Part shown: positions 5,030 to 50,121 of the stretch, piece after piece
How positions within the stretch are numbered: the stretch's first letter is position 1
Layout: each line of letters opens with the position of its first letter
NCBI GenBank assembly: GCA_022072165.1
Contig: JAJVIF010000001.1
Coordinates: 1,754,575-1,818,574 of the forward strand
From: a bacterium
Lineage (GTDB): Bacteria > JAJVIF01
Direction: 5' to 3'
DNA: 64,000 nucleotides
The notes under the pieces: model-generated
Database searches by the model: none
What the model was told of the DNA's origin: nothing
What the model saw: the letters and a program-made list of their open reading frames with translations, nothing else
Translations under genes and position numbers: made by a program

Positions 5030-6445
5030 ATGACCTTCCGATCCGTCCTCTCCCGTGTTCCTGTCATCTGCGTGTTGTTGGCCAGCTTTTGGCTCGCCAC
5101 CCTGTCGGTGGCAACGGCTGAGACCAGTGCGGCAGAGATCGTCAGAGCGGCCGCCAACGCTGAACGGAACACCTGGCTGGCCCTGCCATCCGAAGCACGG
5201 TTACCGCATCCCGACGCCACCCGGTTTCCCGGTGCGGTCCCCGACAATGCACCACGCACCACGCAGACCATCACGCTGCGCGGTCCCTTCATCGGGTGGC
5301 GCGCCAATCGTCCGTGGTGGGAAGCCACGGGCACCTACGCCCCTCCAGGAGCGCTCATCACGGTGTGTATTCCCCCATCGCAGGTCGACCTCGGACTGGC
5401 GCTGCGAATCGGTGCACATCACGACACCACTGACCTGTCGCGCTTCCCGTTTCCCCGGACTCCGGTCGATCTCACCTGCACCACACCCCTGGATCAGTCC
5501 GAGGTGACGCTCGCCAATCCCTTCGGCGGGCCCATTTATATTGAGATTCCAAATGGTCTGCAGGAAGAAGTCCTCAGTTTCGAATTTGCAGGCAGCATCG
5601 AGGCGCCATACTTCAGGCTCGGAGAATCCAACCCTGACACCTGGCTGTCGGTCCGCGATGCCCCAGCCCCCTGGGCGGAACTCCGCTCGCCCCACATCGC
5701 TCTCACTGTCCCGTCAGCGGAGGTCCGGGCGCTTGAAGATCCGGCGGCCCTCATGGCGCAATGGGAGCGCATCGCGGGGTGGGTCCGTGACCTGGGACAG
5801 GGAACACCCTACGCCGAGCGACTGGTGTACGACCCCGGCATCAGCGCAGGCTACATGCACAGTGGCTATCCCATCATTTGTGCTGGTGGACTGGACCAGA
5901 TGCTTCAGATCGAGCGTCTGCAGCAGGGTGATCTCTGGGGCTTCGTTCACGAACTCGGGCATAACCAGCAGTACGGCGGCTGGACACCCAAAGGCCAGGG
6001 GGAAGTCACCTGCAACTGGTTTCCCGTCTATGTCCTCGACCAGCTGGGGGTGCGTGGGGATGTCCGGAGCGCCGACACCCGGGACTTTCCGTCACCGCTC
6101 CCAAGGGGCACGATCGGGAGCCAGAATCCCGGCGGCGATGGCTTCTTCGTAGCGCTCCGCTTTTGGCGACAAATCAAAGAGACCTTTGGCTGGGAGCCGT
6201 TTCGTCAGTTTCTCGCCACGATGAGGGATCCCAGCTACCAATCTCCAGCATCCAATGAGGCTAAGTGGGACGCAATGCTGCTCCTCTTCTCGCAGGCCTG
6301 TCAGCGGGATCTGACACCGCACTTCGACGCCTGGGGCGCGGAGCATTCCGACGCTGGTCGTGTTGCAGTCGGAGCGCTCCAACTGGAGCCCTGGATCGCC
6401 CCCGATGCGCCGGGACAAAGTCCGGCGGTCGAATCGGTGGAATGA
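5030..6445 (+). CDS. secreted M60-like (enhancin-type) zinc metallopeptidase
   Basis: 471 residues with a signal peptide (hydrophobic stretch ~8-26, cleavage probably after VATAE-like AxA region near residue 31). The gluzincin zinc site is HELGH at residues 307-311 with a third ligand candidate Glu at about 325 (GQGEV), matching HEXGH(8-28)E of the M60/enhancin family. Such enzymes cleave glycoproteins, often mucin-like substrates, outside the cell; here the substrate is unknown. The N-terminal half (residues 60-230) resembles the beta-rich domain that accompanies M60 catalytic domains. ATG 5030 is chosen over 4946 because it directly begins the signal peptide and lies six bases after TACCAT. 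Confidence 0.82.
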   Translation: MTFRSVLSRVPVICVLLASFWLATLSVATAETSAAEIVRAAANAERNTWLALPSEARLPHPDATRFPGAVPDNAPRTTQTITLRGPFIGWRANRPWWEATGTYAPPGALITVCIPPSQVDLGLALRIGAHHDTTDLSRFPFPRTPVDLTCTTPLDQSEVTLANPFGGPIYIEIPNGLQEEVLSFEFAGSIEAPYFRLGESNPDTWLSVRDAPAPWAELRSPHIALTVPSAEVRALEDPAALMAQWERIAGWVRDLGQGTPYAERLVYDPGISAGYMHSGYPIICAGGLDQMLQIERLQQGDLWGFVHELGHNQQYGGWTPKGQGEVTCNWFPVYVLDQLGVRGDVRSADTRDFPSPLPRGTIGSQNPGGDGFFVALRFWRQIKETFGWEPFRQFLATMRDPSYQSPASNEAKWDAMLLLFSQACQRDLTPHFDAWGAEHSDAGRVAVGALQLEPWIAPDAPGQSPAVESVE

Positions 6446-48189: not shown

Positions 48190-49365
48190 CTACTCACCGT
48201 TGCCCCGACCAGCGGTCGAGAGCGCTCCGGCCTGACTGGTGGTGGACTCTCCCGGGTGTGTTCCGGGGTCAGCGCTCCCCGCAACATGGCCTGGAGTCTC
48301 CGTCTCCCCGGGCAACACAACCCGCAGGAGGTCGGTCCACCCGGCTTCATCCTCGGGGCCGCCGTCCAGGTAGGTCCCCGTAAACTTGCCTTCCGCCGGG
48401 ATGAACTGATACTGGTACACCATGACATCTGCGGCAGGCAGCGTCGGTTTCAGCAGGAAGCGGAGGGTCGCTCCATCGCGGTAGACCTGGACGGCAAATG
48501 CGGCCTGATGCTCAGGCGCGTACCGATTCGCTGGCCAGTGCTGGAGATTTGGAAAGCGCCACCCCTGCTCCTGACAGAGCGCTGACCAGTCGGTTGGCAA
48601 CGCACCGTGACGGTCAATGTAGGCGGTGATCATGTTCCAGACTTGCGTCTGCATTTGCAGCACCCGCCGTTCGCTAAGTTGCTGCGTCGCGAAGAGGAAC
48701 ACATTGCCGCCAATCTCTGGTGCCAGGCCGCCAGCATCCGGACCGATCAGGCCATGCTGCAGTCGGTCCGCGCGCTGCGCCAGATACTCCGGATAGGTTT
48801 CGCTCACCGGCTGACCTGGGAGCACCGGATTGTCCCCGATGACCTTTTTCCAGTCGTTGCGATACGTGAAGACTGGACGGAAGTGCGTGGGATCAGGATT
48901 CAGTGCCGTGGTCGTAAATCCCTCCTGATCCCAGCTGACACCGATCGCTCCCGGAGGTGGCAGCGAATCCGCCTGCAGTTCAATGACCGGGATTGGCTGA
49001 CCATCCAAACCCACGGGCTCGCGCCAGAGGAGTCCTGCCTTGAATAGCGACTCTCTGTCGGGGGGCGGCGCGCCATGGACGAAGTACCAGGAGTAGATCG
49101 CGATGCGCAAATCCTGCGTGACCCCAAACAGGCGATTACTCATGTGTGACGCCGGATCACCATCGATGAGGCGTTGAATCTGGCTGTCGGGCCGAACCCG
49201 CCAGGCTTCCCGCGCCGTACTCGACAGTTGCGGCGCTGCCGCCGTGTCTCTGCTCCTGCCTTCCAGCGCAGGACCCTGGCAGCCGAGGCTCAACAGGCTG
49301 ACGCTCAGCGTCCAGATCAGCCATGGCAGGCTGGGAGCCGCGTTGCGTGTAATGTGCTTCAGCAT
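48190..49365 (-). CDS. large lipoprotein of unknown function
   Basis: 391 residues. Signal peptide and lipobox SLGC near residues 26-29; AGGAGGACT stands eight bases before ATG 49365. The mature part is helical and aromatic-rich with SNRLFGVTQDLRIAIYSWYFVHG, NVFLFATQQL and a Gly/Pro/Ser-rich end (PGTHPGESTTSQAGA). The stretch LRIAIYSWYFVHGAPPP.RESLFKAGLL resembles the hydrophilic body of type II-secretion pseudopilin-like proteins, but I do not recognise a family. It follows the Cys-rich gene by 20 bases. Confidence 0.7.
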   Translation of the reverse strand: MLKHITRNAAPSLPWLIWTLSVSLLSLGCQGPALEGRSRDTAAAPQLSSTAREAWRVRPDSQIQRLIDGDPASHMSNRLFGVTQDLRIAIYSWYFVHGAPPPDRESLFKAGLLWREPVGLDGQPIPVIELQADSLPPPGAIGVSWDQEGFTTTALNPDPTHFRPVFTYRNDWKKVIGDNPVLPGQPVSETYPEYLAQRADRLQHGLIGPDAGGLAPEIGGNVFLFATQQLSERRVLQMQTQVWNMITAYIDRHGALPTDWSALCQEQGWRFPNLQHWPANRYAPEHQAAFAVQVYRDGATLRFLLKPTLPAADVMVYQYQFIPAEGKFTGTYLDGGPEDEAGWTDLLRVVLPGETETPGHVAGSADPGTHPGESTTSQAGALSTAGRGNGE

Positions 49366-49385: not shown

Positions 49386-49832
49386 TTAAGAACAACCGCA
49401 CTGAGGTGCGTTGCAGTCAGCGGTACTGGAAAATGACCGTGGGCACTGATCAAGATCACACTGCAGCAGGTCTGAAGTACAGTCAGGATCAGCAGGATCG
49501 GGCGTGTAACTCACGCTGCAGCTTCCACTGAGGACCGGATCTCCGCAATCCATACCGTTCCAGCCGGGTCCAGTGCACAGATTGAACAGATTGCTGCACT
49601 TGAAGGTCTGGATTGTCCCCGAAGAGGTCCAATCAGCCATTACGGTGCAATTGTAGCCCCAACCGCAGTCCGCCTGGCAGGTGGAGTTTGGTGGGCAGAC
49701 TGCAAGTTTCCAGCAGCAATCCCAGGCATTTGCGGGGGTGGTGATGACGGTAGTGTCGAGGATCATCAGGCAGAGCAGCAGGGGCCACATCAGGATGTGG
49801 GCTGCTCCTTTGCATGGGCTGCTCCTTTGCAT
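49386..49832 (-). CDS. secreted Cys-rich protein expressed from a repeated start region
   Basis: 148 residues from ATG 49832. Positively charged start (MQRSSPCKGAAH), hydrophobic core LMWPLLLCLMIL and cleavage likely after TTPANA, then a mature domain of ~105 residues with 16 Cys, e.g. WDCCWKL, CPPNSTC, CQADCGWGYNC, CSNLFNLC, CDLDQCP. Such density implies several disulfides; no family recognised. A longer frame to 50042 is rejected because the strong promoter lies inside it. AAAGGAG six bases before ATG 49832; ATG 49790 is an in-frame alternative but its Shine-Dalgarno is 14 bases away. Confidence 0.75.
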   Translation of the reverse strand: MQRSSPCKGAAHILMWPLLLCLMILDTTVITTPANAWDCCWKLAVCPPNSTCQADCGWGYNCTVMADWTSSGTIQTFKCSNLFNLCTGPGWNGMDCGDPVLSGSCSVSYTPDPADPDCTSDLLQCDLDQCPRSFSSTADCNAPQCGCS

Positions 49833-49865
49833 GGGCTGCTCCTTTGCATGGGCTGCTCCTTTGCA
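49798..49865 (-). repeat. four perfect 17-bp repeats, each a Shine-Dalgarno plus ATG
   Basis: On the minus strand the unit TGCAAAGGAGCAGCCCA occurs four times without mismatch. At each junction CCC-ATG-CAAAGGAG forms: AAAGGAG then six bases then ATG. ATGs fall at 49849, 49832 and 49815, all with ideal spacing, in three different frames because 17 is not a multiple of three; a fourth ATG at 49866 lacks a Shine-Dalgarno. Only 49832 reads into the Cys-rich protein; the frame from 49849 ends at TGATG overlapping ATG 49790. Confidence 0.92.
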
Positions 49866-49917
49866 TGACGCATCAGTCACGCCATCGAAGCAGTTCTGTG
49901 TTTGTCGGAATACCCGC

Positions 49918-49946
49918 ACTATACGCTCCTGCTTCTCATCTGTCAA
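49918..49946 (-). promoter_or_regulatory. consensus sigma-70 promoter of the Cys-rich gene
   Basis: TTGACA (49941-49946), 17-base spacer, TATAGT (49918-49923) on the minus strand: the best promoter match in the window. The leader is about 65-80 nt and ends in the repeated initiation region. Confidence 0.85.
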
Positions 49947-50052: not shown

Positions 50053-50089
50053 TTCAAAAACAACAGGACCTCTGGTGACAGAGGTCCTG
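50053..50089 (-). terminator. terminator of the binding-protein gene
   Basis: Perfect 11-bp stem CAGGACCTCTG and complement with loop GTGA (plus-strand reading), followed on the minus strand by TTGTTTTTGAAG. Confidence 0.85.
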
Positions 50090-50121
50090 CTGACTCGTGT
50101 AGCGATGGAACCGGGCAGCGG

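Follow-up and report, generated by a model that had tools for sequence, protein, structure and literature searches.

In Haemophilus influenzae, the 7-bp ATCTTTC repeats of hmw1A and hmw2A are placed in the promoter and 5'UTR, and the number of units tunes expression gradually (PMC8262952). In H. influenzae hifA/hifB a (TA)n tract and in Neisseria porA a poly-G tract separate the -35 from the -10 element (PMC2651432, PMC3899988). The leaders of Moraxella catarrhalis uspA1 and uspA2 contain poly-G and (AGAT)n, respectively, and their repeat number changes expression (reviewed in PMC4679880). With modA-type repeats, the repeat number selects the productive one of two potential starts (PMC3899988). 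In marine Beggiatoaceae, short arrays of an intergenic TAACTGA repeat are found directly before start codons, over the expected ribosome-binding site (PMC4679880). The published repeat-driven phase-variation systems found in our search belong to host-associated pathogens.

Here we analysed a 64-kb stretch of DNA, called the window, from an uncultured bacterium and found a tandem array that is probably the translation-start member of a set of repeat-driven contingency loci. The whole analysis was done on one assembly with predicted promoters and starts, and the phylum was represented by four genomes, including that of the bacterium itself. The region contains the following features:

50061..50092, minus strand: terminator-like hairpin of the upstream substrate-binding-protein gene
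49918..49946, minus strand: sigma-70-type promoter TTGACA-17-TATAGT, 11 of 12 consensus positions
49798-49865, minus strand: tandem array of four perfect 17-bp units of TGCAAAGGAGCAGCCCA, found with TRF
49849-49865, 49832-49848, 49815-49831 and 49798-49814, minus strand: the array units
49386..49832, minus strand: gene of a secreted Cys-rich protein, 148 aa with 18 Cys and a CC motif after the signal peptide
48190..49365, minus strand: downstream partner, a lipoprotein gene of 391 aa with the lipobox LSLGC, from a multigene family in its own genome

No other promoter in the window, on either strand, is as good as the one at 49946-49918. Its 17-nt spacer is free of repeats, and the array does not lie between the -35 and the -10 as in the hifA/B and porA type. 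Transcription would start near 49911, which places the array at about +47 to +114 of the transcript. The terminator-like hairpin sets the predicted operon apart from the upstream substrate-binding-protein gene. In profile searches of Pfam and PDB, neither the Cys-rich protein nor the lipoprotein matched a family significantly, and the single-sequence predicted fold of the lipoprotein was uninformative (pLDDT 35).

The minus strand reads through the array as ...GCGTCA-(TGCAAAGGAGCAGCCCA)x4-CATCCTGATGTGG... With 4.1 copies, 100% matches and a score of 140 it was the top TRF array of the window, whereas the best array (period 5-40) among 100 sequences simulated from the window with a first-order Markov model reached 3.2 copies. 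It is a short perfect tandem repeat at a coding start, as in contingency loci mediated by simple sequence repeats. The genome contains no second copy of TGCAAAGGAGCAGCCCA when up to one mismatch is allowed; the unit is confined to one site, which excludes a dispersed repeat or mobile element. A coding repeat was also excluded, since the period is no multiple of three and the array overlaps the gene start. The sole other array of the window that passed the thresholds (period 1-40) is a 7-bp array, GCACCAC x 2.4, at 5249-5265.

The first-pass annotation had described four units that each supply a start module. Four perfect units are present, but they form three modules of Shine-Dalgarno (SD) sequence and ATG, because the ATG at 49866 that opens unit 1 is without an SD from the array and CATCC instead of TG comes after unit 4, which leaves the SD of that unit 14 nt from ATG 49790. 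The starts at 49849, 49832 and 49815 are each preceded by AAAGGAG and the 6-nt spacer CAGCCC and open these reading frames:

49790..49849, minus strand: 19-codon ORF from ATG 49849 at the unit 1/2 junction, its TGA overlapping ATG 49790 (TGATG)
49830..49832, minus strand: ATG where units 2 and 3 meet, sharing the frame of the Cys-rich gene and presumed to be its true start (MQRSSPCKGAAHILMWPLLLCLMIL...), with SD AAAGGAG, 6-nt spacer and basic n-region
49633..49815, minus strand: out-of-frame ORF of 60 codons from ATG 49815, overlapping the start of the Cys-rich gene

The starts cover all three frames, as had been claimed, with 49832 in the frame of the Cys-rich gene and 49815 and 49849 in the two others. 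The 49849 frame translates as MQRSSPCKGAAHAKEQPTS* (19 aa), and its stop does overlap ATG 49790 in the way first noticed. The ORF of 49815 extends to 77 codons if counted from ATG 49866. SD motifs are in use in this genome (88 of 448 ORFs versus 7 of 448 at a control position).

Translation from 49832 would give MQRSSPCKGAAH and then the hydrophobic core, and translation from 49790 a signal peptide that has no basic residues. In nine of nine compared paralogs a K or R precedes the hydrophobic core. Because translation from it yields a basic n-region, like that of each of these paralogs, 49832 is likely to be the start of the Cys-rich gene and the sole start that gives a normal signal peptide. 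ATG 49790, which had been put forward as an alternative start, is unlikely to be the main one, since the basic n-region comes with the 49832 frame only. The leader ORF thus stops over a start that is probably not the main one. Termination-reinitiation via the TGATG is nevertheless possible: ribosomes loaded at the array would make the 19-codon peptide and then begin again at 49790, and the overlap is exact, with the SD of unit 4 nearby. That the array mainly feeds such coupling is improbable, however, since 49832 has a well-spaced SD of its own, a TGATG is common by chance and the 49790 product would differ from all compared paralogs.

An array of n units contains n-1 SD-ATG junctions, which are located 25, 42, 59, 76... 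nt before ATG 49790 in the frames 1, 0, 2, 1... An SD-driven in-frame start is therefore missing at one or two units, and at least one is present from three units on. The earlier argument that one junction stays in frame when units are lost or gained holds from three units upwards. Two rough initiation models agreed that there is no in-frame SD start at n=1-2 and gave an in-frame share of about 0.05-0.46 over n=3-8. Their shares differed at n=3 (0.05 or 0.46) and at n=4 (0.16 or 0.44), so that only the qualitative statement is used here.

From this anatomy, the 17-bp array is most likely a copy-number rheostat. The constitutive-looking promoter would provide one mRNA for the Cys-rich protein and the lipoprotein. 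The unit would be a duplicated ribosome-binding and start region in which a full SD-ATG site stands at each internal junction, and since 17 mod 3 is 2, successive junctions would take up the three frames in turn. Only every third junction, at present 49832, would then start the real protein, signal peptide included, and the out-of-frame peptides of 19 and 60 codons from the other junctions would compete for ribosomes. Slippage or recombination would add or remove units and change expression. With one or two units, expression would be off or very low; with at least three, an in-frame start would always remain and the copy number would set its share. We infer that the repeat number varies in the population, alters expression and serves surface variation. 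A graded response and not a strict on/off switch is predicted above two units, because the anatomy keeps at least one in-frame start. With four 17-bp copies, the array is short and may be stable.

The window gene is one of a set of paralogous operons that, by sequence, encode a secreted Cys-rich protein and a lipoprotein. A Cys-rich paralog at C2:38979 is 30% identical and has a related lipoprotein gene next to it; its leader contains another perfect array, CCCGCTGTTA x 3.8, which begins at the end of the -10. A lipoprotein profile had about a dozen matches in the genome of the bacterium and hardly any in the three further genomes of its phylum. Across 385 genomes, 381 of them beyond this set, its other matches were weak and partial and came from G002 and G003, and the matching loci there were without an array save for a T12 tract in L011. 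Homologs searched with P0001 in 59 genomes and, in the phylum's four genomes, with the A1 profile were found in the bacterium's own genome only. The DUF711 protein of the bacterium had distant hits only, mostly in Firmicutes.

The leaders of the family contain arrays of 8 bp (L013), 9 bp (L017, L021 and L018), (AG)11.5 (L016) and (CT)10 (L019), and weaker tracts of TG in L023 and A8 in L015. The leader of a close family member, L026:4412, has no array. The repeat unit thus varies by locus among 8, 9, 10 and 17 bp and AG/CT. The products are exported or surface proteins and several such loci occur in one genome, as is typical of contingency loci. In L015, which corresponds to L027 around 5517-6100 on the minus strand, the Cys-rich frame is apparently frameshifted and the A8 tract falls within a 14-nt promoter spacer, TTGACC-14-TAAGAT; it is possibly an off or decayed copy. 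An intergenic array of 20 bp x 5.3, GC-rich, perfect and not obviously a promoter element itself, was seen at L043:4245-4350 (C1:24245).

A static role of the units was also considered, in which their GGA would bind an RNA-binding regulator of the CsrA or S1 type or the leader would fold into a structure, at a fixed copy number. The leader is predicted to fold somewhat better than shuffled sequences (z -2.45), with the first and last SDs paired with the flanking CUGCUUC and GCUGCUC and the middle SDs freer, and multi-site binding would resemble a role proposed for the TAACTGA repeats in Beggiatoaceae (PMC4679880). The sister arrays, however, are without a common unit sequence, and a common binding protein is not expected for them. 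Of the explanations weighed here, this one is the least probable.

We then applied one fixed array rule to 11 loci picked by protein homology and to a background of 800 kb of sampled genome stretches plus the window. A perfect short array in the promoter or leader was found at 8 of the 11 loci versus 5 of 558 background ORFs (Fisher p 8e-13), a background rate that is approximate as the ORF starts were called mechanically. Three second-round stretches had been picked for holding AG/TG loci; their inclusion inflates the background, so that the test errs on the conservative side. Two of the five background positives are leaders of exported Cys-rich genes (L197 and L201), and two more are divergent neighbours of those. 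At L197:16550-16590 (C1:1716550), a 10-bp x 4.1 array, GCAGGTAACG, ends 3 nt before the ATG of the exported Cys-rich protein.

The enrichment bears on a further explanation, that the 17-bp unit expanded neutrally in a slippage-prone region, with the gene working from 49832 and the other starts being noise. The copies number only four, and with respect to frame any array of at least three units still works. On the other hand, arrays of unrelated units recur ahead of the paralogs at the frequency given above, and the perfect copies suggest recent turnover. We consider neutral expansion unlikely, though the least unlikely of the alternatives, and prefer a variable start array.

The promoter spacer is a textbook site of phase variation. 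A blind search of the genome for dinucleotide tracts, which covered AG and TG, found seven loci with (AG)>=7, the same seven with (AG)>=6, and four with (TG)>=6; the pattern TTGACNNNNAGAGAGAG was badly phased and uninformative. All seven AG arrays and two of the four TG arrays begin directly after TTGAC[A/G/T] or one base on, and these nine precede exported Cys-rich proteins or Cys-rich lipoproteins. Clear promoter-spacer cases are TTGACT-17-TATAAT (L019), TTGACA-16-TATTGT (L077) and TTGACA-21-TACAAT (L073), the last with a spacer that is presumably too long. In L016, L068, L079, L082, L086 and L093 the -10 is not consensus. AG/TG arrays thus appear to fill the -35/-10 spacer, firmly at some of the loci and presumably at those with a non-consensus -10. 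L068, L073, L077, L079, L082, L086 and L093, where the array is found near position 1501 of each, directly after TTGAC, are candidate promoter-spacer contingency loci. The proteins behind some of the dinucleotide loci have no detectable relation to the window protein. A search of the phylum's three remaining genomes gave a single AG>=6 tract.

When arrays beside such genes are counted from 2.4 perfect copies or six dinucleotides upwards, they amount to at least 17 loci, at least 14 of them ahead of exported proteins with at least 11 Cys. The sister loci would act at other levels, the AG, CT and TG tracts by setting the distance between -35 and -10 and the arrays of 8-10 bp from a position on the -10 or immediately behind it. 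In the window, the array is found at the start codon, about 50 nt past the promoter, and because of this different position their mechanism is not simply transferable to it.

Differences in repeat number were found between neighbouring paralogs. The leaders of L017 and L021, adjacent on C1, match almost completely over about 370 bp save for 18 bp, which correspond to two 9-bp units, the array of L021 being the shorter. L021 (L028:6922-7845, minus strand) is a truncated Cys-rich gene fused to the lipoprotein gene, adjoins an intact paralog and is apparently a recombination product. L086 and L093, 3.5 kb apart, have TGGCACTTGACGTGTG in common, with a TG number of 12-13 versus 8-9. Since these are paralogs and not alleles, they show a change of repeat number over evolution and do not bear on switching within a population. 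The paralog arrays and the L017/L021 pair strengthen the earlier proposal that expression of the Cys-rich protein is tunable by copy number. Taken together, our results suggest that this uncultured bacterium may randomly vary its surface proteins by repeat gain and loss.

If this is true, array control over one family of secreted, disulfide-rich proteins in a G+C-rich lineage known without culture would suggest strong fluctuating selection on the surface, for which phage, predators or a host are candidate sources. The set of arrays would be a ready list of loci for metagenomic reads. The SD-ATG array would, if true, be a new route from copy number to the level of translation and not to an on/off frame. 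In the literature searched, which lies mostly outside subscription journals, no array was found that combines an SD and a start codon in one unit. We tentatively propose, with somewhat less than even confidence, that the repeat unit is a full SD-start module with a period that is no multiple of three, so that copy number splits the ribosomes among three frames, within a set of at least 17 arrays for a lineage-specific secreted Cys-rich protein/lipoprotein family in a little-known phylum.

Among the known systems, the hmw1A/hmw2A arrays share with this genome units of several bp that overlap or follow the -10 and belong to the 5'UTR of the mRNA for a surface protein, and they are most like the 8-10-bp arrays of the sister loci. 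They have 13-24 or more copies and proven variation, whereas the window array has four copies of a unit that itself carries SD and ATG, and its variation is presumed. The AG/CT and TG loci resemble hifA/hifB and porA in having the tract after the -35; they differ in the use of AG and TG and in forming a many-locus set before Cys-rich exported proteins, and the window array lies outside the spacer. As in uspA1 and uspA2, the window repeats are found between the promoter and the start codon of a surface-protein gene, but those are leader tracts for which the review (PMC4679880) mentions no SD-ATG in the unit. The Beggiatoaceae use one unit with little SD character across many unrelated genes, whereas the present genome has locus-specific units at related genes and a strong SD. 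In the modA type, the repeats are inside the gene and shift its frame; in the window array, the starts and their SDs are inside the repeats.
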